From IMG/VR virus record IMGVR_UViG_3300030520_000110, positions 1-23,939 of that record: a stretch of 23,939 bases of DNA; one strand, given 5' to 3'. The notes beneath the pieces are model-generated. The model had not been told where the DNA came from. It did not search any database and saw nothing but the letters and a program-made list of their open reading frames with translations. Source of the stretch: a virus. Made by a program: the position numbers and the translations under genes. Shown here piece by piece: positions 1 through 22,840 of the stretch (positions are counted from its first letter, which is position 1; each line of letters starts with the position of its first letter).

Positions 1-2074
1 CGGCGCCACCCTGCGCGATGACCCCGGCCTGATAGCCGCCGCTGCCAAGTGCAGCCGCATTATTGCAGCAGCCGTTGAACTCACTGCTTTCTATTGTACT
101 GTCGCCGAAGCTCGGGAAATTCGCGCCAGAAACGGCTGAACCGTACGTCCACGCGAGATAGCCCTTGAAATTGGAAACCGTAAAATTCAATGCATTAATC
201 ATATCCAACGGCGTATCCGCGCCGTAGCACATCACATCACGAACAACGCTTTGTGCATTGGCGTTGCTGCTGCCTGATGTTGCCTGAATGGTCAGGCATT
301 GCGTTCCCGGCCATGCTGCGCTGCCGTTCCATCCAGCGGCTCCGACCGGATAGAGAATCTCGAAGTTGCTAGCCTTGATGGCATAGTTCGAGGTGCAGGT
401 AAGCGCGTTGGCAGAGGCGACCGAAATAATAACCGATCCCTTCCCAGTGAGGTTAGCAAGCCCCTGGACTGCGTAACCGCCCCCAGCGGCCAACGCCCCG
501 CCATCGCCCTGATAACCCGCACCATCAATGCGTAGCGGCCCGGTACAGGTAAGTCCGCTGCTGATTGGATAGCTACCGGCCGGCAGAAATGCATACCCGT
601 TCGTGGCCGCAGTCAGCCAGTTTTGAAGTGCCGTCGTATCGTCATGAATGACATAGGATGAGGTGACGGCATTGCCGGCGCTCGCCGCCAGCGTCAGCGA
701 CGTGGAGCCTCCACCCGAAGAAACCGTCGTGACCAGCCAGTCCGGCAACGCGCTGGCGATCGGACAGGAAGACGGAATCCAGTCCGGGGGCGTCCAGGAT
801 TCGACACCCATGTCGTTATAAGCGGTTTGCGTGACGACTGCGATCGGCACCAGCGAGCCGGATTTATTACCGCAGACCAGATAAGCCGAAGGCGCGGTTC
901 CGCTGACAGGAGCGGTCCAAGCCAACTGATTAAAGTTCGTGCTGCTCAGCGTAGCAAAGCCAGTCGTGGTAGAAACCGCCGTGATGGTCGCACCGATCCC
1001 ACCGGCCGAATCCAACGATGCAATCGTATATTGATAGCTGGTTGAACCCGACGTACCGGCTTGTGTAATAGCCAGCGCAGTTGGCGGGTTGATGGCAAAG
1101 GAAGCCCCGGCATGATTGACGCGGATGCCTTGGCCATTGACGAAATCCTTAGCCGCACCCAGCACTAGCGTGGCGGATGAACCGGAGATCGTACCGGTCG
1201 TATTCTGGACCGAACCTGAGGTAGTTGCGGCCGGCAATGTCATCACCGAACTTGTGATAACAATACTAGATCCGGAGGCTGAAACCGTATTGCCGGGACC
1301 TCCAACGATAGATGGATTTCCTGTCAGGCCGTTTAGCGTCGCCACGCCCGCCGTCGCTGACGATGCAATCTGCCCGGGCGTTACATATTTGATCGATCCT
1401 GCCGCATTATCGTACAGCGGGATTTTATCATTCGTGGCATCCGGAGCCCCGCGCGCCGTCAATCCCTGGATGGTGAAATCAGTCGGCGCTACACTCGCTG
1501 TCGCGGTTGGATTGCCCTTGAAGGTCGCCGCCCCGACCAGAGCCAGATTGGCATTCGGAAGCAATCCAGTTACAGCGGTCGCCAGATTGACTTGGTTATA
1601 GGTGCCATCGCCACGAAAGAAAGTCGTGGTGTTGTTGGGAAACGCCGGCATTGCCCCAGGCAGAGACGATGTGACCTGATTGATCAGTGCCGTCAATTGC
1701 GAGTTGGTGTACTCTCCGATCTTACCTGCATTATCATATACCACACGCCCCGATGTGCCGCCCGTGATCGCCGTATTCCCAACCTGGATATTGAGAGCTG
1801 AAGGCGCGACCCCGCAATCCTGTAGCAACCCGGTAGTTCCATTGAAGCAAGCAAGATTGCCAGCCACCACAGGAGCGGTCGGCATAATCGAATTGATGAT
1901 ATTGTCGGAGATCGTCCGCGTGTTAAGCGGAAGAATCTGGAAATTCATATTGTCTGGGAAATTTGCGCTGACCTGTGCGTTCAACTGTACAGCGGTATAA
2001 GGTGCCTGCGCATGGCTATACCCAGTCATGGCGCATAGCAGTGCGACCGCCGCGATGATGCGTCGTGAGATCAT
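1..2074 (-). CDS. Tailspike-like protein with pectate-lyase fold and Sec signal peptide, 3' end outside window
   Basis: This open frame runs from an ATG at 2074 to the left edge: 691 codons with no stop seen, so the C-terminus is missing. Residues 1-22 (MISRRIIAAVALLCAMTGYS, then HA|QAP) look like a signal peptide. Residues 24-60 resemble the fibre-type start AQLNAQVxANFPDN. A linker follows with FFRGDGTY at 152-159 and TFKGNPTATAS-type repeats common in tail proteins. Residues about 335-422 look fibronectin-III-like. From D478-D479 the pattern DDTTALQNWL, FLPAGSYPISSGL and LRIDGAG is the classic start of a pectate-lyase-type right-handed beta-helix. The expected role is host polysaccharide binding or cleavage at the virion surface. 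It follows the fibre gene after 17 bases. The catalytic residues and trimer tip would lie outside the window. Fold confidence is good; the enzyme activity is inferred. Confidence 0.85.
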   Translation of the reverse strand, partial: MISRRIIAAVALLCAMTGYSHAQAPYTAVQLNAQVSANFPDNMNFQILPLNTRTISDNIINSIMPTAPVVAGNLACFNGTTGLLQDCGVAPSALNIQVGNTAITGGTSGRVVYDNAGKIGEYTNSQLTALINQVTSSLPGAMPAFPNNTTTFFRGDGTYNQVNLATAVTGLLPNANLALVGAATFKGNPTATASVAPTDFTIQGLTARGAPDATNDKIPLYDNAAGSIKYVTPGQIASSATAGVATLNGLTGNPSIVGGPGNTVSASGSSIVITSSVMTLPAATTSGSVQNTTGTISGSSATLVLGAAKDFVNGQGIRVNHAGASFAINPPTALAITQAGTSGSTSYQYTIASLDSAGGIGATITAVSTTTGFATLSSTNFNQLAWTAPVSGTAPSAYLVCGNKSGSLVPIAVVTQTAYNDMGVESWTPPDWIPSSCPIASALPDWLVTTVSSGGGSTSLTLAASAGNAVTSSYVIHDDTTALQNWLTAATNGYAFLPAGSYPISSGLTCTGPLRIDGAGYQGDGGALAAGGGYAVQGLANLTGKGSVIISVASANALTCTSNYAIKASNFEILYPVGAAGWNGSAAWPGTQCLTIQATSGSSNANAQSVVRDVMCYGADTPLDMINALNFTVSNFKGYLAWTYGSAVSGANFPSFGDSTIESSEFNGCCNNAAALGSGGYQAGVIAQGGA

Positions 2075-2091: not shown

Positions 2092-3987
2092 TTATCCGCG
2101 GTACTGCGCGGTCAGGAGCATCTGGTTGCTGCCAAAATAGGAGACGTTATTTGTGGTGACGCCGCCGAAGGCAGGATTTTCAAGAGGGTAGATTGTCGTG
2201 ATGCCGAGAGCCGGGGGAAAAATGCACTTCGATTTCAGGCTGCCCCCTGATAGGGCGCTGCTCGCAGATCCCGGATTGAACGTCATTGCTCCCGCTGCAC
2301 AGAACGAAGCAGGAGCCGGCGATGACGTATTGCTGTTGATGCCAATGCTGATCGCAGCCGAAACCGTCGCCGAGCTTAAGGCGGCAAACGTCGCGTTCTG
2401 GCTGAAATCGAGATCGACTACTTGTTCCGGCAAGCCCGTGAACGTGGTAATGACATTGTTGGTGTTTCCATTGTTGGAAACGATCCATCGATTGCCGCCG
2501 CCATCGGTCCAGCTTCCGGTGGAATCCTGCTCCTGCTGGATAATGTTCTGTTGATTGTAGGCGTTCCAGATGCCGAACTTGCGGTTTTGTCCGACCGTTC
2601 GATAAGCCGAGACCTGCCCCGCCGTTGAATCAATCGAGAGAGATCCGACATAAGTGCATTGATTGGCCGGGATGGTATAAGACGATAGCCCGTTATAGCC
2701 GACGATCGAAACCGAATTGACCCAGATCCCTTGCAACCGCGTGAGCTGCGCGGTACCAGCTCCCGTTCCCCGGCTCCCCGACCCCGCTGTTGGGACGGAC
2801 CAAGCTGGACCCGTAACTAGCGTCGGAACTCCGTTGTTGGAGAATACACAGGAGTCCTGAATGGCTGAAGCAGCGCTTCCGGCACTTGTCAGCGTCGCCG
2901 TCAATTCCGAGAATGTAATACCTTTGAACGCCGACCCGTTCCAGATCGGAATCTGATTGCCGTTATAGGGCGAATAAAAGATCGTGGCGACGCCAACCAC
3001 GTCACCAGTCTGCACCACATCTCCGGAGGCTTGCCCCACCAGATTGAGATAACCTTGAGGTGGCGCGAGCCCGGATGATGTGCCGCCGCTGCCCGAGGTT
3101 GATTCTGCCGGATTAACCAGATGAAATTCGCTGTTTGTAGAATCATAAACGATGAGCGGCTGATTGAAGGCATCGATCTCGCCTCCTGATAAGGCTGCTG
3201 GACCAGAAGTTGTATCTACTACGATCGGAAGCAGCGCACCTCCAGAAACTTGTACTGTTGCGGGTCCGGTATTGGAAGCAATAGCCCGAAACTGGATTGC
3301 TGCGCCGTCCTGCAATGCGAATGACGTATCGGTGATCTGGATAGCGTTGCCAGTGCCAGTAGCTAGGCCAGCCCAGAATATCCCCTGTGGAGAGGTCGAA
3401 GCCGTGAGTTTCGTGTATACTGTGTTCCCAAGGCTATCCTGCACCACCATGAGGTAGATGCCGGCACCATAAACGACCGCACAGCCGTTTTGATCGAGCG
3501 GGACGGGGTTCTGGTTGAGGGTGACTTCCCCGGCATCCTGCCATGTCTGCTTATAGGTCTGGGTATTCGGGATGTAGAACCCAACTGACCCGCCAGCCAG
3601 CGACGAATTGATCGAGGTAGAGGCCACCGGGATCAAAAGACCGCTTCCAGTGCCGCCTATTGAGGCTGCAGGGGCGCTTAAAACGTCTCCGACGACGTAC
3701 TGAATGCCGGGATTGAGGATTATGACGGCGGTGACAATCCCTCCTGAAACTGTTATATTCGCAGTCGCACCGGTCCCGGATCCGCCCGTTAAAGCGACCC
3801 CGCCATAGGTGCCATTTGTGTAGGAACTGCCGCCCGTGATCGAGCCGAGAAGCCCGACCATACCGTTGATTCCAGCCGTGGCTTGGAAGCACGTTTCTCC
3901 CGGAGGCAATATCGTGGCCTGCCCGAAGGCCTGCACACACGACAAGGCGACCGCAAAGGCTGCGGCGATGGCGGTTTTGAATTTCAT
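2092..3987 (-). CDS. Tail fibre or appendage protein with signal peptide and virion-attachment-like domain
   Basis: A 631-residue protein. Residues 1-22 (MKFKTAIAAAFAVALSCVQA, FG|Q) form a typical Sec signal peptide. Residues 50-120 are a Gly/Ser/Thr beta module (YTNGTYGG, GTGATANITVSGG, VGDVLSA, GGTGSG) seen repeatedly in phage appendage proteins. Residues 138-195 (FYIPNTQT, TWQDA, LNQNPVPLDQNGCA, GIYLMVVQDSLGNTV) match the arrangement of N-terminal virion-attachment domains in podophage spikes and fibres. Residues 225-292 (IQFRAIASNTGPATVQVSG, LIVYDSTNSEFHLVNP) are another common tail-protein beta domain. The C-terminal half is Ser/Gly/Asn-rich and not recognised. No enzyme motif was seen. 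It is the first gene after the plus-strand ORF and precedes the tailspike. A signal peptide in front of a virion-attachment domain is odd, because phage tails normally assemble in the cytoplasm. Only a weak ribosome site precedes the ATG. Confidence 0.8.
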   Translation of the reverse strand: MKFKTAIAAAFAVALSCVQAFGQATILPPGETCFQATAGINGMVGLLGSITGGSSYTNGTYGGVALTGGSGTGATANITVSGGIVTAVIILNPGIQYVVGDVLSAPAASIGGTGSGLLIPVASTSINSSLAGGSVGFYIPNTQTYKQTWQDAGEVTLNQNPVPLDQNGCAVVYGAGIYLMVVQDSLGNTVYTKLTASTSPQGIFWAGLATGTGNAIQITDTSFALQDGAAIQFRAIASNTGPATVQVSGGALLPIVVDTTSGPAALSGGEIDAFNQPLIVYDSTNSEFHLVNPAESTSGSGGTSSGLAPPQGYLNLVGQASGDVVQTGDVVGVATIFYSPYNGNQIPIWNGSAFKGITFSELTATLTSAGSAASAIQDSCVFSNNGVPTLVTGPAWSVPTAGSGSRGTGAGTAQLTRLQGIWVNSVSIVGYNGLSSYTIPANQCTYVGSLSIDSTAGQVSAYRTVGQNRKFGIWNAYNQQNIIQQEQDSTGSWTDGGGNRWIVSNNGNTNNVITTFTGLPEQVVDLDFSQNATFAALSSATVSAAISIGINSNTSSPAPASFCAAGAMTFNPGSASSALSGGSLKSKCIFPPALGITTIYPLENPAFGGVTTNNVSYFGSNQMLLTAQYRG

Positions 3988-4006: not shown

Positions 4007-4315
4007 ATGAGAGAGCGCCTACTAACGAAACGCGGCAGACTTATTCTTCCCGTTACTGGGATCGGTTTTGCCATCCTCATCTGGGCTAGATTGAATGGTT
4101 TCGATTCTGGCCCCAAGGCGCTCATCATCATTTTCTTGACGAGCGTGCTGGGCGGCATCGTTCAATTCATTGCTGGTCGCGTCGAGGGCCAAGAAGAGCA
4201 TTCCGCGTCCCTAGAGATACGGGAAACGTCGAAGCCGTCCCCACCCGCGCAAGTCGGTTATGAAGGGCGGCGCCTCTTGACTGTTCGTCCATCAAATCCT
4301 GAACAAGAGCATTGA
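4007..4315 (+). CDS. Putative two-helix membrane protein on the opposite strand (possible moron)
   Basis: A 102-residue ORF on the plus strand, the only plausible gene in that direction. It starts with a basic stretch (MRERLLTKRGR) and has two hydrophobic segments, at about residues 12-29 (LILPVTGIGFAILIWARL) and 37-57 (ALIIIFLTSVLGGIVQFIAG). A polar tail follows. Bases 3988-4166 contain no better minus-strand gene, which favours this ORF, but its last 149 bases run antisense to the end of the ejection-protein gene. An AAGGG lies 12 bases before the ATG, which is far for a ribosome site. The gap to the divergent fibre start is only 19 bases, so its promoter would have to sit within the fibre gene. 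It could be a small holin-like or superinfection-exclusion protein carried as a moron, or a chance ORF. Function unknown. Confidence 0.42.
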   Translation: MRERLLTKRGRLILPVTGIGFAILIWARLNGFDSGPKALIIIFLTSVLGGIVQFIAGRVEGQEEHSASLEIRETSKPSPPAQVGYEGRRLLTVRPSNPEQEH

Positions 4316-10057: not shown

Positions 10058-11658
10058 GCGGCATGCACGATTGGAGGGTCGAGGAACGCTTGATTTAAAC
10101 CCGTCGTCATCCCTGCGACCCAACTAAGCTCAAACACAAAATCTCTGCCTTGTCCTAACCCGCGCCACCGCAACATCGATCTATAATGTCCAGCACTCGC
10201 TAATTGTTTGGTGCGGTAATTTCCGAACGTCTCGCCGCCATCTTTTGACACACGTAGCGAGACCTGCGGAGGGAGTGCGACCGCTTGCGGCCCCCAAGAT
10301 AGATTTTTGCCTAACGTCGGAACGCCGCTCGATACCTCGGTCCATCCTGATCCTGGAACAGGCGTTACCGTGATGCCGACCGGCGACTGCGTACCAAATC
10401 CAGAACTGAATGCTCCAGAAATTTGCGGGACTTCTGCCGATCCTGCCAATGTCCCAGTTGCCATATCAGCCGTGAAACACGGTAGCGTAACCATGTGCAT
10501 TTCATTGACGACATGCGGGAACGATCGAATGCAGGAAATCGGCTGCCCGTTATCCGTCGCGTAGTTCGGGTCGAGTGCGTAAATCTGGCCGGTCTGCCAG
10601 TCCATGCCGACGTTGGTATCGTAGGCGAAAGCATGGAACGCAACACGCTCTCGGTTTAACTTACCGTTCTTGTCGGTATAGGCTCGCTCATGCCATTGAC
10701 TAGTAGCACGATCAAATCCCCACGACTTATTAGCCGAGGGGAAGTGGATCACAACGAAGCTATGGCCACCCTGCTGGTAGGTGTAGCAGATCGCATCGGT
10801 CAAAGTGGGATAGGTCAGCCACTCGTCTTCCAGCGCGTAGGTCGAGACGCGCTTGGCCCCATAACCCTCGATCATCAGGAAGATAGCGCGTCCATCCTTA
10901 TCCTGCGATAGAAAGAATGCGTTAACATCGATCGTGCAGACTGAATAAGGGGCGATTGTCCCGTGTGGAACGATCTGGCCAAATACTTCCTCGAAAGGAA
11001 AGATCGGATCTCCCGCGTCGAACCACGGCTCTGATGTCATTGTTCCGATCAGCCAAAGCGTGCGCTGGCATGCGATCAGTGTTTGAATCGGATCGCCAAA
11101 TGTTCCTTTCGAAGCCTGGTCGAGCGCGTTGAACGCTACCTGCTCGGATAGCGACACATACCAGTTGTTAGTCGCTATCTGATTGAAGCTAAAAACCGTA
11201 TCGAAGAACTGTGTCCGCGTCGCGCCAGTAAACAATCCCGTCGTATCGACGATCTGCGTCATCTGACGCGAGGTCATGTTGATCTGGTAGCCTAGCGGGC
11301 TGTTATCGACGAGGACGATTTCATTACCGTTCGACTGGCCGTTATCGTCCATCGATACCGGAGTGGACTGGTTTTGAATCTGTCCTAGCTCGGTGAACTG
11401 CCAATTCGGGTTGATGTAATAAACGTTGGGACCAACCACCCCGTATAGATCACCATTGGAAACTCGAAATACTCCGCGGCCCCTCCCCGGCACCGGAGGA
11501 GCGCCGAGAGGTCTATTTCCCGGTCTCACATAATGGGTGAATGGCGATTCCGGATCTGCCTCTTCCGGATTATTCTCGCAAAACACATTCACCGAGCGCT
11601 GCGCATTGGCAATTAGTGACCGATTTTGATATGCTCCGGAATTGAGCGGGATTTTCAT
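10054..11658 (-). CDS. Tail hub / packaged-DNA stabilisation protein, P22 gp10-like
   Basis: A 534-residue protein, somewhat longer than P22 gp10 (472). It begins with MKIPLNSGAYQNRSLIANAQ and RSVNVFCENNPEEADPE, then a loop with TxYxRPGNRPLG. This matches the gp10 family opening, where a short strand is followed by RSVNxxxExN and a PTPG-type turn. The body is beta-rich with repeated aromatic blades (LYGVVGPNVYYI, NNWYVSLS, LWLIGTMTSEPWFDAG, WGFDRATSQWHERAY, YALDPNYATDNGQPI), consistent with a beta-propeller hub. In P22 gp10 binds gp4 below the portal and holds the tailspikes. Here it is separated from the gp4-like gene by the four-gene A-B-A-B cassette. It overlaps both neighbours by ATGA. 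Confidence 0.85.
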   Translation of the reverse strand: MKIPLNSGAYQNRSLIANAQRSVNVFCENNPEEADPESPFTHYVRPGNRPLGAPPVPGRGRGVFRVSNGDLYGVVGPNVYYINPNWQFTELGQIQNQSTPVSMDDNGQSNGNEIVLVDNSPLGYQINMTSRQMTQIVDTTGLFTGATRTQFFDTVFSFNQIATNNWYVSLSEQVAFNALDQASKGTFGDPIQTLIACQRTLWLIGTMTSEPWFDAGDPIFPFEEVFGQIVPHGTIAPYSVCTIDVNAFFLSQDKDGRAIFLMIEGYGAKRVSTYALEDEWLTYPTLTDAICYTYQQGGHSFVVIHFPSANKSWGFDRATSQWHERAYTDKNGKLNRERVAFHAFAYDTNVGMDWQTGQIYALDPNYATDNGQPISCIRSFPHVVNEMHMVTLPCFTADMATGTLAGSAEVPQISGAFSSGFGTQSPVGITVTPVPGSGWTEVSSGVPTLGKNLSWGPQAVALPPQVSLRVSKDGGETFGNYRTKQLASAGHYRSMLRWRGLGQGRDFVFELSWVAGMTTGLNQAFLDPPIVHAA

Positions 11659-12080
11659 GAGCGGATTTGCGTCGCCGAGAAGAAGCCAAACGTGATGCGA
11701 GATCCAGGCCCTAGCGAATAGGGCTGGTTCAAACCGAGGGCATCGATCTGCAGGCCGGGCGGTGGATAGACTTTAAGAGCGTTGGCACCCTGATTGGCCA
11801 CAAGCTGCGACTGCCCAACGCCATATGCCGATAGCAATACGCCCGTACCAGCGACAACAGTATCGACTTCATTCCATTGATCACTGAGTTGCAGCGCCGT
11901 GGCCTGATTGGTGCCGGTCGCTTCTAGACCATCGCCTACCGTTGCAGTAGCTTGGTTCGTGTTGGCTTGGTTGATGACGCTGAGCAGATATTGATAACCA
12001 CTGCTCGACAGATTCCCCGTAGCCGGGTCTACAAATGGTTCCTGCGGGGGCGGAAGGTTGTTGCCGGTCGTCTGGGCCAT
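11655..12080 (-). CDS. Cassette protein B2: GTNQAT-domain protein without signal peptide
   Basis: A 141-residue protein. The N-terminus (NNLPPPQEPFVDPATGNLSS, then YQYLLSVINQ) matches the PfvDpxTGxxxxxxxxfLxxLxxx opening of many small phage structural proteins. Residues 51-137 are a beta-rich domain starting GLEATGTNQATALQLSD and containing EVDTV, a TGVLL strand, ANALKVYPPPG and a Phe-rich end (ITFGFF). The same domain, with GTNQAT at identical residue positions, occurs in the protein at 12283-12729, so the two are paralogs. It overlaps the A2 gene by ATGA at 12080 and the gp10-like gene by ATGA at 11655. No signal peptide is present. A tail-associated knob is possible; the function is unknown. 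Confidence 0.8.
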   Translation of the reverse strand: MAQTTGNNLPPPQEPFVDPATGNLSSSGYQYLLSVINQANTNQATATVGDGLEATGTNQATALQLSDQWNEVDTVVAGTGVLLSAYGVGQSQLVANQGANALKVYPPPGLQIDALGLNQPYSLGPGSRITFGFFSATQIRS

Positions 12081-12283
12081 CAGGCAACGTCTTCCGGATT
12101 TTCCCAGATGATCGACAGATGTCGTTTCGAGGCCTCAGCCAACGCTTCCCGGGATGTCATATGCGCGTTTCGCGGCGCGTTTTCCGATTTTGGCTTGAGC
12201 GACGTATAAAATACTAAGCCATCCTTCCAGCCGTAGATTGCCTTGCGAACCTTCCGAAGGTGGGAACTACGGCTGATTGGCAT
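12080..12283 (-). CDS. Cassette protein A2: small YGW protein
   Basis: A 67-residue basic protein (MPISRSSHLRKVRKAIYGWK...). It is not recognised, but it resembles the 64-residue A1 protein at 12732-12926: both have YGW (17-19 here), a basic/Pro-rich middle, a short helix rich in Ala/Glu, and a final hydrophobic-Trp-x-(x)-Pro motif (SIIWENP here). The distance from the YGW tryptophan to the last tryptophan is 41 residues here and 42 in A1. It starts with TAATG overlap to B1 and ends with ATGA overlap to B2, which argues strongly that it is translated. No signal peptide or membrane helix is present. It may be a chaperone or partner of the B protein encoded next to it. Confidence 0.75.
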   Translation of the reverse strand: MPISRSSHLRKVRKAIYGWKDGLVFYTSLKPKSENAPRNAHMTSREALAEASKRHLSIIWENPEDVA

Positions 12284-12729
12284 TAGTTCGAATACCAGAC
12301 GCCTGTTTTGCCGCTCGTAAAGCCCTGTGCCGTATTCGCATTCAGCGTATAGCTGGTCGTGTTGTTGATTTTATCCTGCGCTCCCAGCGAATTATTATTG
12401 ATCGCAGGATATATTGTGATGTTGTTAGCGGTATTGTTGATCACGGTAATCGTCATGCCGGCAAGGGCAAACGGCAATGCCGCGCCAGTGCTCGCGCTTG
12501 AGGTGTCAACCTCAAGGAACGAAACCAGATCTGCAAGCTGAAGAGAAGTCGCCTGGTTAGTTCCGATCGCGGTCAGGCCATTCTGGAAGGTAAAATTATG
12601 GCCCTGGGTGATTCCGTTGATGAAATCACCATCCATCTCCTGGAAACCAGTATGAGGGATGATGCCGATCGCGGCATAGCCCATCGAAGCAAACAAAAGC
12701 ATGAACCCAGCAATGAGAAGCCGACGCAT
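12283..12729 (-). CDS. Cassette protein B1: GTNQAT-domain protein with Sec signal peptide
   Basis: A 148-residue protein starting at 12729. The ATG at 12777 also reads open but would overlap the A1 gene by 46 bases. At 12729 the protein begins with a clear signal peptide (MRRLLIAGFMLLFASMGYA|A), and AAGGA lies 8 bases upstream. After cleavage the mature protein is a beta-rich domain: GLTAIGTNQATSLQLAD (51-67), FLEVDTSS, ALPFALAGMTITVINN, ANNITIYPAINN and a C-terminal TGVWYSN. It is a paralog of B2 (11655-12080), with GTNQAT at the same residue numbers, but B2 has a different, non-secreted N-terminus. It is separated from A1 by two bases and overlaps A2 by TAATG. Export to the periplasm is predicted. 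Its role is unknown. Confidence 0.8.
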   Translation of the reverse strand: MRRLLIAGFMLLFASMGYAAIGIIPHTGFQEMDGDFINGITQGHNFTFQNGLTAIGTNQATSLQLADLVSFLEVDTSSASTGAALPFALAGMTITVINNTANNITIYPAINNNSLGAQDKINNTTSYTLNANTAQGFTSGKTGVWYSN

Positions 12730-12731
12730 CG

Positions 12732-12926
12732 TTATAATCCTTTCTCGGATTGGTCTTTTGTGAGTTTTGGAATCCACATGATGTCGGCGCGCTGGCGCTT
12801 AAGCATGTCGTGCACTTCGGCCATTGTCTCTAGGCATACTGCCGGACGAATGGGAGAATCTGGTGGGTAACGGCTGACTAGATAGCCGCGGTGATTGTGC
12901 CAGCCATAGAGCAGTCTACGGGCCAT
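12732..12926 (-). CDS. Cassette protein A1: small YGW protein
   Basis: A 64-residue basic protein (MARRLLYGWHNHRGYLVSRY...). YGW is at residues 7-9, then PPDSPIRPAV, a helical stretch (ETMAEVHDMLKRQRAD) and IMWIP at 49-53. It matches A2 (12080-12283) in motif order and spacing. Its start overlaps the stop of the gp4-like gene as TAATG at 12926-12928, and the next gene begins two bases after its stop. No signal peptide or membrane helix is present. The family is not recognised. The repeated pairing of an A gene followed by a B gene suggests that A and B proteins act together. Confidence 0.75.
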   Translation of the reverse strand: MARRLLYGWHNHRGYLVSRYPPDSPIRPAVCLETMAEVHDMLKRQRADIMWIPKLTKDQSEKGL

Positions 12927-16822: not shown

Positions 16823-17677
16823 TCAGGCTCGTCGCATATATTTAGATTTATACCAGGATTCCCATTGTTTATCAGACATCTTTTCGTTGCCTTCAGGCGT
16901 GGTTGGATCGACTTCAGGAGCCGCAGCTAGTGGCGCTAGACGAGGCGCAGGAGTCGGCGCGCGGCTAATAGCGGCAGGCTTTGGCGCCTCTGCAGCCGGC
17001 TTTACTTCGGTCTTTGGCGCGTCGGCCATACGTGTAAGCTCCGCAATACGGCGGCGAGAATCCATACCAACCAGGGATGCCGCCTTTTCAGGGTCCTTGG
17101 CGAGTTTATCTAGAATTTTGTGAGCGCCAGCCTTATCGACTGCTAGCACATCGGAAACGAAGTCGTCATTGGTGGCACCGATCGCTGTCAAAATTCCTAG
17201 CGACTGATTGAAATCAGGAAATTCACCCTCGCCAGCCGAGCGAACGGTCATCGTATCTTCGTACAGACGATCCTTGGCAGCCTGGGCCTTGACGGCGGCT
17301 TGGAAGTCCTGTGGGGCCTCGCGAGAGGTCGCTGGCGGCTTAGTAACTACCTCAGGCTTCTCGCCGCCCTGCATGCGCTCAATAATAGCCTGCAGATCGG
17401 CGGCGCGCTGCTCAGCCGCTTCGCGCGCGGTACGCTCTTGCTGCTTCTCCTGACGGACCTCGGCAATGACGCGCTGGAACCATGGGGTTTGACCCTTGTT
17501 TCCATGCAGAGGCTCAGGCTTTGCCGGTTCAATTACCGGTTCTGGCTCAGGCGGAATCTCCGCAACCGGCTCCGGGACAACCTCGGCGACCGGCTCGATA
17601 ACGTCGGGCTCAGGCGCGGCCGGCTCATCCGGGGAACGTAATGCAGTTGAAAGATAGAGATGGCGCAAGATATTCAT
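16823..17677 (-). CDS. Scaffolding protein (predicted)
   Basis: A 284-residue protein between the portal block and the coat, where P22 places scaffold gene 8 (303 residues). Residues 16-58 are almost all Pro, Glu, Val and Ala (acidic and disordered). Residues 66-103 are a charged coiled coil (VIAEVRQEKQQERTAREAAE). A helical middle follows (LYEDTMTVRSAGEGEFPDF, KILDKLAKDPEKAASLV), then a Pro/Ala linker (220-260). The C-terminus has aromatic and basic residues (DKQWESWYKSKYMRRA), reminiscent of the basic coat-binding end of P22 scaffold. GAGG lies 5 bases before the ATG. There is no signal peptide. Assignment is by position, composition and C-terminus, because scaffold sequences diverge quickly. 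Confidence 0.78.
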   Translation of the reverse strand: MNILRHLYLSTALRSPDEPAAPEPDVIEPVAEVVPEPVAEIPPEPEPVIEPAKPEPLHGNKGQTPWFQRVIAEVRQEKQQERTAREAAEQRAADLQAIIERMQGGEKPEVVTKPPATSREAPQDFQAAVKAQAAKDRLYEDTMTVRSAGEGEFPDFNQSLGILTAIGATNDDFVSDVLAVDKAGAHKILDKLAKDPEKAASLVGMDSRRRIAELTRMADAPKTEVKPAAEAPKPAAISRAPTPAPRLAPLAAAPEVDPTTPEGNEKMSDKQWESWYKSKYMRRA

Positions 17678-18176: not shown

Positions 18177-18430
18177 GCGGACCAATTTCCTTGCTCTGCC
18201 GTTGGCCTAAATCTCTCTATCGGAGTAATGCGGCTGCCGGGAAAAGTCAGTTCCATGTGGTGAAAGCCGGAGCTGCGAATTTCGCCGCCATCGGTGAACC
18301 ACGTGGTCTCTATAGTGCCATCAGGATGCACATCCATTATAGTCATCGTCGGGCCGCCGCTATTCAGCCGCGCCAACATTCCCTTTTTGATGGTGCCCTT
18401 GATCTCGTCAAGCCTAGGATCATCGCTCAT
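18173..18430 (-). CDS. DUF2158-like small protein
   Basis: An 85-residue protein. The core pattern, with LNSGGPTMTI (22-31), then MDVHPDGTIETTWFTDGG (32-49), matches DUF2158 proteins, which read like GDxVxLKSGGPxMTVxxxxxxGxVxCxWF. The end (HHMELTFPGSRITPIERFRP) fits as well. Members are small beta-barrel-like proteins of unknown function, mostly bacterial. It is tied by ATGA overlaps to the portal (18427-18430) and to the next gene (18173-18176), so it is made in step with portal. A role in portal or DNA handling is only a guess. Confidence 0.75.
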   Translation of the reverse strand: MSDDPRLDEIKGTIKKGMLARLNSGGPTMTIMDVHPDGTIETTWFTDGGEIRSSGFHHMELTFPGSRITPIERFRPTAEQGNWSA

Positions 18431-20607
18431 TGCACACCCTCATCCGCACTTGGCGTGATATCCGCTGCATTCGCCTGTTCCAACACGTTGAAAATGTGCT
18501 GATTGGCCTGTGTCCGCAATTCATTCTCGGCGCGTTGCTGGCTCAACACATGCTCCACCGCAGCTTCGATAATCACCTTCATGCGCGCCGTTTCGGCATC
18601 GAACGATTTGACATCGTTGCGCTCATCCCGGCCGCGGACCTTAAGCTTTTCATCGGCCAGTTTCATCATAAGCTCACTATTAAGCTTCTGGCCTTCAGCG
18701 ATCTGAGCCTGCAACGCCGCAAGGTTCGGATCCTGCCCGTCATCAAACAGCCATGGGCTGGTGTGTTTAATCCATTTCTGGACCCGATCGGCCATTTCCT
18801 GCGCCCCGGCGAAGTCGCCATTCTTGAGCGCCAGATCGCCCATGATCGCGGTCAATTCCTTGTTCTGGGCTATAATCTGGGTCATGGCGTCCCATGCCTG
18901 TTGGCGCTGGGTTGCATAATTCGGGCCAGGATCGCTTAGAACTTCATATTCGCCGACCAGCGGATTGAAGATGATCTCTTCGGCAGCATCGGTTTCCTTC
19001 TTGATGCGCTGGAAGGCTTCCTTGGCATCCGGATCAATGGTGATGATCTTCTTGGAAAGATCCTCGCCTTCCACATGAAGGATACGCTTGGTATCGTACA
19101 GTTTCGGATAGATTCCGATCAACTGCTTTCCGAGGTTCCGGTACATGTCGTACTGGTGCTCGGTGAAATGATACGTAGCTATATTGCCCGGGCGCTGGCG
19201 GGCGTTGATAGTCTTATCGGATTCTACGCCTGCGGGATTAGCCTGTCCTTGTGTGGGCTCGTACTGGCCCGTGACCATCATCGCCCAGCGTTCTGCATCC
19301 TGCATGCCTTGCATGAACACCGGAGAGATTTGCGGCGGCTCTACGCGGGTGGGAGCGGCTACCTGCCTTCCTTCCTCGCCTTCATCCTGCACAAAGTCAT
19401 TATAGGCGAGATAGGCATAGTCCTCGATATTGGCGTTCGCCCATTCCTTTTCGTTAGTCTCGAACGCGGCTATCGGCCCGATCCATGGCGTCTTGGTCTG
19501 CAATGCGCCGAACTGTGCTGAGCCTGAAGCGTTGTAATTGAGCAATTGCTGCGGCGAGAGCTGAGCCCTGGTATGCCCCTTGCAGTCCATCTGGCCGTTG
19601 ATGATAGTCTTGAGCCCGTAACACGGGATGATCGGGACGTATTCGCCGATCCAGCGGGTTTCCGGCTTGTCACCGCGCTTCAGGATGCAATCGCCTCCGA
19701 TCAGATACCAGTTGACGCTCTGAGTGATAACGTCACGGTACTTGCCCTCGATCTCTCCAGAATCGATCTTCTCGATCGTCATATCGACGAGTTCTTTGCC
19801 GGAATCTTCTTCCATCTCTGACCGGTGGCCGCGAAACTCGGTGCCATCAGGCAGCTTGAACCAGATCAGCTCGTCGTTTTTGGCCTCGCGCTCGAAATAT
19901 TTGGCAACTAATACATGCTTGTCGCCCAGCCAGAGCGCATCTTGACCAAGGGTAGACATCCCTACCTTGTCCTTGAACTTGGGATGCTCGCGGTTGAACC
20001 GATCGCGCGATAACTTGTCGAAAATAAACCCGAACTGCGCGTCGCTTCCATCCGGTGACTTGGTTTCCGCGTCCGGGTCGAGATAAACCGCCCTCGGATC
20101 CGGGGCAGCACGGATATAGATATCCTGGTCGAACGATTTGTCGTTGACGAAAGCCGTTTCCAGAAACAGGTAGCCAAATCCACCATCAACCTGGTGCGTG
20201 ATTGCGGTGCGATAGGCAATCGTCGCCGACGAGACATATTCAGTCCGGTCGATCAGCGCTTGCATTCCCTCAGCCGCATCTGCGGTCGCTTTACCACCCG
20301 TCGCCCTGATCCGGATCGAGGCCTTGTTCAGCATCGACTCGTTGATCACCAGCCGGTTATGCGGCTCGATGATATTGATAGTCAGGCATGGCTTGCGCTT
20401 GTTCGTGCGGTCAGCCCAAATCTTGTCGTCCCAGCCATATTGGTTACGGTCATCCTGGTAGGCGCATTTGGTGTCTTCAAGGCTTCGCCGGTAGGCCGTG
20501 TCATACCATTCCTTGCAGCGCAGGAAGCGCTGGCGGGCCCGGTGAACGATCCTGGTATCTCCGGTTAGTGTCGGGTTATCATCGCTGCCATCGGCCGGAT
20601 ATGCCAT
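18427..20607 (-). CDS. Portal protein, P22 gp1-like
   Basis: A 726-residue protein, the same size as P22 portal (725). The N-terminus has RARQRFLRCKEWYDTAYRRS, LEDTKCAYQDDRNQYGWDDK and RKPCLTINIIEPHNRLVINE. Residues near 130-175 (VDGGFGYLFLETAF, FDQDIYIRAAPDPRAVYLDP) match the P22-portal family core. The C-terminus is a long charged helix (ETARMKVIIEAAVEHVLSQQ) consistent with the barrel. The portal forms the 12-subunit vertex ring through which DNA is packed. I choose the ATG at 20607 because it overlaps the micro-gene stop as TAATG. A TTG at 20622 reads open but is unlikely. It ends with an ATGA overlap to the DUF2158-like gene. Confidence 0.93.
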   Translation of the reverse strand: MAYPADGSDDNPTLTGDTRIVHRARQRFLRCKEWYDTAYRRSLEDTKCAYQDDRNQYGWDDKIWADRTNKRKPCLTINIIEPHNRLVINESMLNKASIRIRATGGKATADAAEGMQALIDRTEYVSSATIAYRTAITHQVDGGFGYLFLETAFVNDKSFDQDIYIRAAPDPRAVYLDPDAETKSPDGSDAQFGFIFDKLSRDRFNREHPKFKDKVGMSTLGQDALWLGDKHVLVAKYFEREAKNDELIWFKLPDGTEFRGHRSEMEEDSGKELVDMTIEKIDSGEIEGKYRDVITQSVNWYLIGGDCILKRGDKPETRWIGEYVPIIPCYGLKTIINGQMDCKGHTRAQLSPQQLLNYNASGSAQFGALQTKTPWIGPIAAFETNEKEWANANIEDYAYLAYNDFVQDEGEEGRQVAAPTRVEPPQISPVFMQGMQDAERWAMMVTGQYEPTQGQANPAGVESDKTINARQRPGNIATYHFTEHQYDMYRNLGKQLIGIYPKLYDTKRILHVEGEDLSKKIITIDPDAKEAFQRIKKETDAAEEIIFNPLVGEYEVLSDPGPNYATQRQQAWDAMTQIIAQNKELTAIMGDLALKNGDFAGAQEMADRVQKWIKHTSPWLFDDGQDPNLAALQAQIAEGQKLNSELMMKLADEKLKVRGRDERNDVKSFDAETARMKVIIEAAVEHVLSQQRAENELRTQANQHIFNVLEQANAADITPSADEGVQ

Positions 20608-20711
20608 TAGTCGCGCGTCCAAGACGCATCGCGGAACGGCCTATTAAATATCCACCTCCATTCGATCGGCCAATATTTTATCGCATATCGCAGACGCTGC
20701 CAAAAATTCAT
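20607..20711 (-). CDS. 34-residue aromatic micro-gene between terminase and portal
   Basis: A short ORF (MNFWQRLRYAIKYWPIEWRW, then IFNRPFRDASWTRD) with five tryptophans and many basic residues. Its ATG overlaps the terminase stop as ATGA (20710-20711 shared region) and its TAA overlaps the portal ATG as TAATG. It fills the 103-base space between the two genes exactly, which argues that it is translated. The first half could form an amphipathic helix that binds a membrane or a protein groove. It is too short for a family call. It may only pass ribosomes from terminase to portal, or be a small packaging cofactor. Confidence that it is translated is moderate. Confidence 0.55.
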   Translation of the reverse strand: MNFWQRLRYAIKYWPIEWRWIFNRPFRDASWTRD

Positions 20712-22117
20712 CAGCTCGCCATCCAGCCGTGGCCGTTGCGGTCTTCCAATGTCGGCAGCAAGGATCGCACTAACGGTTTCTTTTCCGTGACTTTCTTGGT
20801 GATGACCGGGAATAACTCGGTTAACGCCCAAACAAGCGCATCGACTCTATCAGGGGACATCTCACCAACCATGCCGTTAGGACCAAAGTTGACCATCTCA
20901 TCTTCCAACGCGGCGAAGGTTCCGACGTGACTGATGCGGCCCTGCTCATAGAGCGCCGCAACTGGTTCAGCCCGGGTCCACTTGCCTTTGGAGGCATGAA
21001 CCTCCTTGAATGGAACGGTAGGCCGAACCGCCCTCACCGTGGCAGCAACCATATCTCCGCCGTTGTTTATTTCGCCGACGATGCAATCACCCTGATGCCG
21101 GTCGAAGCACGCGACTGCCATTCTCGCCCAGCCATTCGGGCTTTCACGACAAGTAGCATCATCCAGCACATAACCGCGATTATCTTCGCCAACGCCAGCA
21201 ACCACAATTCCAGTGGCTGCCCCGTCTTCCGGCATGTCATTCTTTTTTGCCGCCGGATCGATCGCAACAACAACCCGCTTCAGGATTGGCACCTGATCGG
21301 GATGACGCCGATCGCGGTCGAGTGCCATCCGTGTCCACAATGCGTCTGGCACGTCGTCCAGGATCTCAGCCGAGAGTTCCTGCCGTCCCAAGCGCGTGCC
21401 GGCATATTTCTCGGTGATGTACTTGATGAACGGGGCAGCCAGATTGGCCTCGTTCTCAAGGGTCACCCCTCGCGTGACTACCGTAGTTGGCGCCGCGAGT
21501 ATTTCCTTCAGGACCGGGATCGGACGGGGTGTAGTCGTAATGATCTGGCGCGGATGCTCACCAAGTCGCATGCCAAACTGGAGTTGATCCCATGTCTCGC
21601 GGCTATACCGCCATTTGGCAAATTCATCACACCAAGCCCGGTCGAATTGCGGACCTCGCAACTGGTCCGGCTCAGTCGCGTTATAACCATAAGCGATAGC
21701 ACCAGTATGAAACTCAACCCGAATAGGCTTCTTGGTGATCTTCGGTTTTTGGTGGGGAGGAAATACTGAATAGATCCCGCTATTCCCGAAGCACATAACC
21801 TCTTCGAGATCCTTTTGAGTCTCGGCAATCAATGCAATTCGACTAGCGCGCTTGGACGTTACCTCGTCCCGTACCCATTCAGCTCCGCACCGGGTTTTGC
21901 CAAATCCACGGCCGGCAAGAACCAGCCATGTGATCCAATTTCCGACAGGCGGAAGCTGATTTGGCCTTGCGAAAGCATCCCAGTCCCAGAGCGCACCGGA
22001 ACTGAGCAATAGCCTATCGAATTCTTTCAAATCAGCAGGGCTAAGCTGAGCAAGAAACCTCTCTTGCTCAGCTGGAGACATTCCAGCAAAATAGGCTTCA
22101 GCGTTGCTGATATCCAT
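20711..22117 (-). CDS. Terminase large subunit
   Basis: A 468-residue packaging motor. The ATPase half has Walker A LAGRGFGKT (67-75), Walker B AWCDEF with D164-E165, and the coupling motif TTTPRP (195-200). The nuclease half shows three acidic positions of an RNase H-like fold: D287 in VVVAIDPAA, E349 in CIVGEINNGG and D423/D426 in SPDRVDALVW. The opening (LSSGALWDWDAFARPNQLPP, NWITWLVLAGRG) resembles the COG5323-type terminases common in alphaproteobacterial phages and gene-transfer agents, more than P22 gp2. All catalytic residues appear present. The ribosome site is poor, and the gene starts 15 bases after the secreted protein. It ends in ATGA overlap with the micro-gene. Confidence 0.95.
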   Translation of the reverse strand: MDISNAEAYFAGMSPAEQERFLAQLSPADLKEFDRLLLSSGALWDWDAFARPNQLPPVGNWITWLVLAGRGFGKTRCGAEWVRDEVTSKRASRIALIAETQKDLEEVMCFGNSGIYSVFPPHQKPKITKKPIRVEFHTGAIAYGYNATEPDQLRGPQFDRAWCDEFAKWRYSRETWDQLQFGMRLGEHPRQIITTTPRPIPVLKEILAAPTTVVTRGVTLENEANLAAPFIKYITEKYAGTRLGRQELSAEILDDVPDALWTRMALDRDRRHPDQVPILKRVVVAIDPAAKKNDMPEDGAATGIVVAGVGEDNRGYVLDDATCRESPNGWARMAVACFDRHQGDCIVGEINNGGDMVAATVRAVRPTVPFKEVHASKGKWTRAEPVAALYEQGRISHVGTFAALEDEMVNFGPNGMVGEMSPDRVDALVWALTELFPVITKKVTEKKPLVRSLLPTLEDRNGHGWMAS

Positions 22118-22132: not shown

Positions 22133-22840
22133 TCAGAGCGTCCGATACCACACGCCAGTATTGCTGGCACCAGCCTGATAGAGCCAGCAGTTCTTGCCCA
22201 GGGTAGCCGTGCCGGCAGTACCGACCGCGGTCATGACAGGAATGCTGGTCGGCGTGACACCAGTGATAGTGGGGGTGTTGCCGAAGGAGTTGGTGCCAGC
22301 CGCAACGGCAGACAGGGTGAGGATACCGCTTCCAGCATCCGACAAGCAAAAGGTCTGGTTGGTGATCGGATTCGGCGGCAGTTTGAAGCTGGTAAAGGTC
22401 GCGGTGCCGGCGCCGGAATAGATCAGATTCGATATGCCATCCGAGGCCTGAACCAACGCAGTCGTGCCGGTGGTCGAAAATACAGTCGTGCCACCATATC
22501 CGTTAGCCAGCAGCGTGGACGGAATAACGACGGTTTGAGGAGGGGCGCTACCGGCCAATCCGGTGTCCATCGGAATGAGCTCGGTTCCCGTAAGGGCCGG
22601 CGGACCTGCAGGCACGGTCTGAGCACAAAGCGAACCCGACGTGGCTTGACCCTGGCCTGTCGGATTGACGTTGTTGGTGTTGCCCTGGGCAGTGAACCCA
22701 CCAGCCCCCGAAACAGTCGAGGCGCAGAACGATGCGCCGCCGACAATGGGGTATATCGAATAGTTACCAGCCGCATATGCAGCCACAGAGCCTACCGTCA
22801 GAGCAACGGCAAGCAGCCCGGAAAAACGGGTTACTTTCAT
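22133..22840 (-). CDS. Secreted beta-rich protein of unknown function
   Basis: A 235-residue protein starting with a strong signal peptide (MKVTRFSGLLAVALTVGSVA, then AYA|AGN). AGGAG lies 7 bases before the ATG. The mature part is rich in Gly, Thr, Ser, Ala and Pro and likely all beta. Segments include IYPIVGGASFCASTVSG, GQGQATSGSLCAQTVPAG, TNQTFCLSDAGSGILTL and a C-terminal NCWLYQAGASNTGVWYRTL. Four cysteines (C38, C73, one in the TFC segment and one near the end) could form disulfides in the periplasm. The end TGVWY also closes B1 (12283-12729). It is placed just upstream of the terminase, unusual for a secreted protein. Possible roles are a surface-modifying, superinfection-blocking or virion-tip protein. 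The family is not recognised. Confidence 0.8.
   Translation of the reverse strand: MKVTRFSGLLAVALTVGSVAAYAAGNYSIYPIVGGASFCASTVSGAGGFTAQGNTNNVNPTGQGQATSGSLCAQTVPAGPPALTGTELIPMDTGLAGSAPPQTVVIPSTLLANGYGGTTVFSTTGTTALVQASDGISNLIYSGAGTATFTSFKLPPNPITNQTFCLSDAGSGILTLSAVAAGTNSFGNTPTITGVTPTSIPVMTAVGTAGTATLGKNCWLYQAGASNTGVWYRTL

Follow-up and report, generated by a model that had tools for sequence, protein, structure and literature searches.

Conserved signal peptides on spike- and fibre-type proteins point to a possible periplasmic route for the virion appendages of P22-like podoviruses

Four late proteins encoded in a 23.9 kb virus record (hereafter the window, that is, the whole stretch of DNA that was analyzed) carry predicted Sec signal peptides (SPs) that recur throughout a clade of related, uncultivated phages. 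We consider it somewhat probable that these proteins, denoted here B0, B1, the fibre and the spike, are virion appendages of a P22-like podovirus that are exported via Sec, oxidized in the periplasm and joined to tail-less particles at lysis. The late genes, all on the minus strand, encode a terminase, a P22-type portal, a coat protein, neck proteins similar to Hc3 (phrog_578, E 1.8e-74) and Ad3 (phrog_637, E 7e-5), ejection-type proteins, a fibre and a spike (Table 1). Judging from sequence similarity, the portal places the phage among the P22-like podoviruses. The window shares with the P22-like late module the portal and the Hc3- and Ad3-like proteins, in order, but differs from it in that SP-encoding genes are located ahead of the terminase gene (B0) and between the adaptor and Hc3-like genes (B1). 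The closest relatives of the terminase large subunit in bacterial genomes come mostly from Alphaproteobacteria, and host searches with the fibre profile (397 genomes from the order of Mesorhizobium) and with the B0 profile (385 genomes from the class of a Rhodospirillales genome) yielded weak partial matches only. An HNH endonuclease gene (PF13392; 8829-9305, minus strand), likely a homing endonuclease, lies within the late structural cluster, and an open frame of 102 aa (4007-4315), which likely includes a membrane segment and gave no Pfam match, is located on the opposite, plus strand between an ejection-type gene and the fibre gene.

Table 1. Features of the window discussed in the text (↓, predicted cut)
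Feature	Coordinates	Strand	Remarks
Spike	2..2074	-	SP and 'FPDN..G.ITP' N-domain; 3' end lies beyond the window
SP of spike	2009..2074	-	22 residues, SHA↓Q
Fibre/tailspike	2092..3987	-	SP, interrupted head-binding domain and C-terminal region
Core of fibre tailspike head-binding domain	3355..3606	-	residues 128-211; joint family profile; 7EEQ, E 0.018
SP of fibre	3922..3987	-	22 residues, AFG↓Q
SP-less paralogue of B1	11655..12080	-	N-terminus PPPQEPFVDPATG; between Ad3-like and Hc3-like genes
B1	12283..12729	-	SP and beta domain
SP of B1	12673..12729	-	19 residues, GYA↓AIG
P22-like portal	18427..20622	-	PF16510, E 1.7e-110
Terminase large subunit	20711..22117	-	adjoins B0; query for relatives
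B0	22133..22840	-	SP, conserved N-domain and, at the C-terminus, a variable beta domain of the type found in phage spikes/fibres
SP of B0	22772..22840	-	23 residues, AYA↓AGN

The SPs were predicted with our own implementation of a rule that combines n-region charge, h-region hydrophobicity and a von Heijne-type cleavage score, calibrated on control phages and antisense frames. Under the strict version of this rule, 4 of the 27 window genes are positive, namely B0, B1, the fibre and the spike, which are the same four late proteins, with the same cuts, for which the preliminary description had reported SPs with AxA-type sites. All four display, by this rule, the features of Sec and SPase I substrates, that is, n-, h- and c-regions with small residues at -3 and -1. 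The predictor can err, as illustrated by the Rivra capsid protein, which passes a looser rule. The B0 gene has an AGGAG Shine-Dalgarno sequence and its product starts with MKVTRFSGLLAVALTVGSVAAYA↓AGN; the true start of B1 is at 12729 (AAAGGA ahead of ATG), the longest-frame start at 12777 being wrong, and the Shine-Dalgarno sequences of the fibre and the spike are weak. A cysteine at +1 is missing at all four window cuts, and this lack of a lipobox rules out lipoproteins of the Llp/Cor type.

Relatives were collected with terminase, B0, B1 and fibre profiles, and the fuller records were then read; single-sequence searches of viral contigs with B0 and the fibre retrieved no relative, so that profiles were needed. 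The scan of 13 related records detected 70 SP-positive frames on the late strand as opposed to a single one in the antisense orientation (1437 ORFs of at least 100 aa), a ratio that argues against chance as the source of the signals, and the same scan of controls (two complete phages, part of a third and one viral record) produced 0 or 1 SP frame each. Of the 70 late-strand frames, a few probably encode ordinary membrane proteins or lipoproteins or are spurious overlapping frames. The terminase, portal, scaffold, coat, neck and ejection families that are conserved in at least 3 genomes all lack an SP, and the signals can be regarded as conserved clade-wide and confined to appendage-type proteins. 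The recurrence of the SP families across the 13 records bears out the comparison with related phages that had been proposed in the preliminary description, and the misplaced starts that it named as a possible refutation do not account for SP-bearing N-termini that are conserved in the relatives, many with ribosome sites. In-frame ATG or GTG codons with a Shine-Dalgarno sequence near the cut are present in 0 of 71 genes, which gives no sign of an SP-less cytoplasmic isoform made by internal initiation.

A separate observation concerns a 51 kb viral record (G007; L067-L069) in which the larger tail genes are siphovirus-type in appearance and the appendage SPs are absent. Because its terminase is 69% identical to that of the window, yet the tail genes are siphovirus-like, the terminase appears to have been exchanged between tail types.

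Searches of PHROGs and Pfam assigned no family to B0, B1 or the spike. For B0, an SP is present in all 15 distinct relatives, the N-domain is conserved and includes an invariant Cys pair, and the C-terminal part is variable, with an unrelated longer one substituting in some relatives; such a layout would be expected if the conserved part were an anchor and the tip could be exchanged. The C-terminal domain (mature residues 92-212), in a model with pLDDT of about 75-80 over most of this part, aligns with the spike- and fibre-type beta-sandwiches of T4 gp9, CBA120 TSP4 and the Pa223 capsid spike at Z 6.2-7.9, with an identity of ~13%, and Z values below 8 may reflect a common arrangement only. 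The resemblance of the modeled domain to the phage spike beta-sandwich is suggestive, not conclusive. The preliminary description also stated that B0 and B1 both end in TGVWY. The pentapeptide is real (TGVWYRTL and TGVWYSN), but it is not at the very C-terminus and the relatives end differently, with VWYRVL, TWYRLY, AWGRLQ or KWFRIQ in the case of B0 and GVWAAK or GVWASK in the case of B1. The comparison of B0 with B1 gave an hhalign probability of 0.7%, and BLAST shows just the pentapeptide; given the lack of conservation and of homology between B0 and B1, TGVWY was rejected as a common motif.

In the fibre, the head-binding domain consists of residues 24-42, an inserted domain and the core. 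A comparison with the joint family profile gives E 4e-40 for the window fibre, a value that shows membership rather than independent discovery given that clade sequences are included in the profile. The profile of homologues with and without SPs matches the solved docking domain 7EEQ at 1.8e-9, as well as 9VYG and 9VYH, and the clade profile by itself reaches 7EEQ at just 0.018. The SP-less homologues, from Pseudomonas phage PAE2 and its relatives, match all three solved domains and provide the intermediates through which the fibre core can be assigned to the same family. The core N-terminal domain is accordingly identified, at the level of profile comparison, as the head-binding (virion-docking) domain of podovirus tailspikes, and the fibre gene, as in podoviruses with such tailspikes, is placed behind the ejection genes. 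The isolates differ in that their tailspikes begin directly at the domain, without an SP, whereas in the window clade the SP is accompanied by an extra Cys pair and, in most cases, by the inserted domain. Each of 12 genomes encodes one copy of the head-binding-domain protein, with an SP in 11 (including G019, which misses the strict rule although the SP is evident), the remaining one (G017) being unclear and none clearly SP-less. The AlphaFold model of the fibre is poor (pLDDT 49). The inserted domain (3607-3855, minus strand; ~80 residues) is related to phrog_5342 tail fibre repeats and is a clade feature that, it appears, is repeated in G025. The plus-strand gene for the PAE2 tailspike (L075:14864-16873) is unannotated; in its place, the annotation has two hypothetical genes on the minus strand.

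The SP itself seems to be a clean add-on to pre-existing N-termini because the SP-less homologues of the fibre, the spike and B1 begin at the position of the predicted cut. The PAE2 tailspike begins with MTQLLPNGKQHF and the window fibre reads AFG↓QATILPPGETCF; SP-less homologues of the spike domain begin with MAKTKSEI and the SP forms read AYAQ↓KTKAQL. The nearest relatives of window B1 (L111 and L112; 60-63% identity) lack an SP and begin with MPIGILP and MPIGTVP, respectively, preceded by a strong ribosome site; these starts coincide exactly with the cut in window B1 (GYA↓AIGIIP). The spike N-domain is SP-bearing in all 11 copies from the clade genomes and is widespread otherwise: a pattern search detected 79 copies, of which 13 satisfy the SP rule, ~5 more are SP-positive by eye, and many have a Met right at the domain start. 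Most of the B1 relatives are SP-positive, and some miss the strict rule only because the n-region contains an acidic residue or the start lies upstream, the h-region and the AxA site being the same. In one genome (G018), B1 has no SP whereas B0 and the fibre have one, and therefore not every member of the set needs to be exported. In a broader sample of tailspikes, an SP is fused at the start of the head-binding domain in 5 of 80, and none of 31 GenBank records matches through the SP (of these, the two matches that extend farthest in that direction were inspected); for these reasons, SP fusion seems to have occurred more than once and to be general only in this clade.

The cysteine content of the mature proteins provides a further line of evidence, considering that cysteines tend to pair in the oxidizing periplasm. 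Even and odd Cys counts are distributed 40:7 among the mature SP proteins and 69:68 among conserved SP-less families of the same genomes (Fisher p 2.6e-5). These counts are not fully independent given that relatives share ancestry, which is offset in part by a test with one vote per family (24:5 for SP families versus 142:180 for SP-less ones, p 6e-5). In the fibre, all SP forms have the Cys pair at columns 12 and 148, where PAE2 has His and Glu; the SP forms of B1 contain two mature cysteines, window B1 none and the SP-less L111 one. The even counts point to disulfides formed after export, and Sec export of the SP proteins appears to be well supported. The 'coordinated extracytoplasmic function' suggested in the preliminary description thus gains from the conservation, the even cysteines and the failure to find an SP-less copy of the recognized receptor-binding domains, and loses the link through TGVWY.

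From the SPs, their conservation and restriction to appendage genes, the match between cuts and SP-less starts, and the cysteine signature, we infer export, cleavage, oxidation and docking that follows export. In the proposed route, cleavable Sec SPs, fused onto the N-termini of receptor-binding spike- and fibre-type proteins, would direct the synthesized appendages to the periplasm; once the SP is removed, the docking N-terminus would again be the native one, in agreement with the exact junctions with the SP-less homologues, and disulfides would form in the periplasm. Heads and necks would meanwhile assemble in the cytoplasm without appendages. For exported appendages, contact with heads in the cytoplasm would thus have to await the failure of the inner membrane, and docking to the tail-less particles would follow once it opens at lysis. 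The SP-less tailspikes of P22 join finished heads spontaneously in vitro, which makes completion of virions at lysis plausible. For the broader proposition that the whole receptor-binding set passes through Sec and is oxidized in the periplasm, so that virions are finished at lysis and intracellular heads are not yet infectious, we see the chances as evenly balanced. Neither a precedent for a tailed phage that loads spikes from the periplasm nor papers on Sec signals on tail fibres were found in the part of the literature that was searched.

The chief rival of periplasmic loading, although we regard it as rather unlikely, is that the SP proteins are non-virion decoys or receptor masks that bind the host's own receptor from the periplasm or from outside and block superinfection or the sticking of progeny to debris. 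The beta domain of B1 is also present in its SP-less neighbor, so that B1 could represent the exported version of a domain that the virion may also carry, and phage proteins of the Llp/Cor type provide a precedent. However, the SP is found on the sole head-binding-domain protein in 11 of the 12 genomes and on every spike N-domain, so that decoys would leave the virion without a recognizable receptor-binding protein, and a virion-docking domain would be superfluous in a pure decoy. A role as exported enzymes, in which some of the SP late proteins would depolymerize polysaccharides and thereby remove the host matrix at lysis or earlier, with the spike-like domains as mere carriers, strikes us as improbable for the set: B0, B1 and the head-binding fibre contain no recognized enzyme domain. 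Envelope depolymerase activity probably does apply to some members, considering that an SP-positive gene of Acetobacter phage phiAX1 encodes a GH66 dextranase-type protein and that a 727-aa protein of another relative (G005) is glycosidase-like by eye and has a Tat-like signal.

The two remaining explanations dispense with export. We hold it very improbable that the hydrophobic N-terminus is retained in the virion protein, where it would serve as a plug that penetrates membranes or forms trimers: P22-like virions do have membrane-active parts, but the conserved small residues at -3 and -1, the basic n-regions, the coincidence of the cut with SP-less starts and the even cysteines all argue against it. 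Wrong starts or chance hydrophobic runs, to which the weak ribosome sites of the fibre and the spike and the fallibility of the predictor might be taken to point, are refuted in practice by the sense-to-antisense ratio together with clade-wide conservation, and the probability that we leave to them is negligible.

Compared with known systems, periplasmic loading of appendages would be closest to filamentous phages, the virion proteins of which are Sec-exported with cleavable SPs; these phages assemble at the membrane without lysis, whereas the window belongs to a tailed phage with head assembly in the cytoplasm. Llp, Cor and Sie are phage-coded, exported superinfection-exclusion proteins, small lipoproteins or membrane proteins, from which the SP proteins of the window differ in that they have no lipobox and are mostly larger, beta-rich and of the spike type. 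In the textbook view, tailed-phage assembly is entirely cytoplasmic, and split-compartment assembly, if real, would be a route for which we found no description in tailed phages in the literature searched, and in which virion completion is coupled to lysis, disulfide-stabilized spikes become possible and the infected cell is possibly coated with the receptor-binding proteins of its own phage.

The isolate phiAX1 has three SP frames, two of which are consecutive late genes. In the second of these, the GH66 gene (L076:17388-19313), the annotated start at 17493, which is probably too late, hides the signal peptide MKKIIILALLLLAPCVHA↓MP that is added by the upstream ATG at 17388; SP-bearing spikes can thus escape gene callers and virion predictors. 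The passages searched in the acetic-acid-bacteria phage paper show no virion protein data; being culturable, phiAX1 offers the best experimental handle on SP-bearing appendages. The 727-aa protein of G005 (19404-21587, minus strand; L066, L065) is encoded in an SP gene cluster and has the N-terminus MKRLALSRRMLLGGVAALGFDRSALAQ with its Tat-like twin-arginine signal, which suggests that this phage may also use the Tat route. Small SP-bearing Cys-rich proteins are encoded downstream of the spike in three records (G002, 11304-11702; G018, 45001-45426; L208, 10802-11143), and are marked by the sequences RDLGQWENSDP... and HDTWANG...ACCG.
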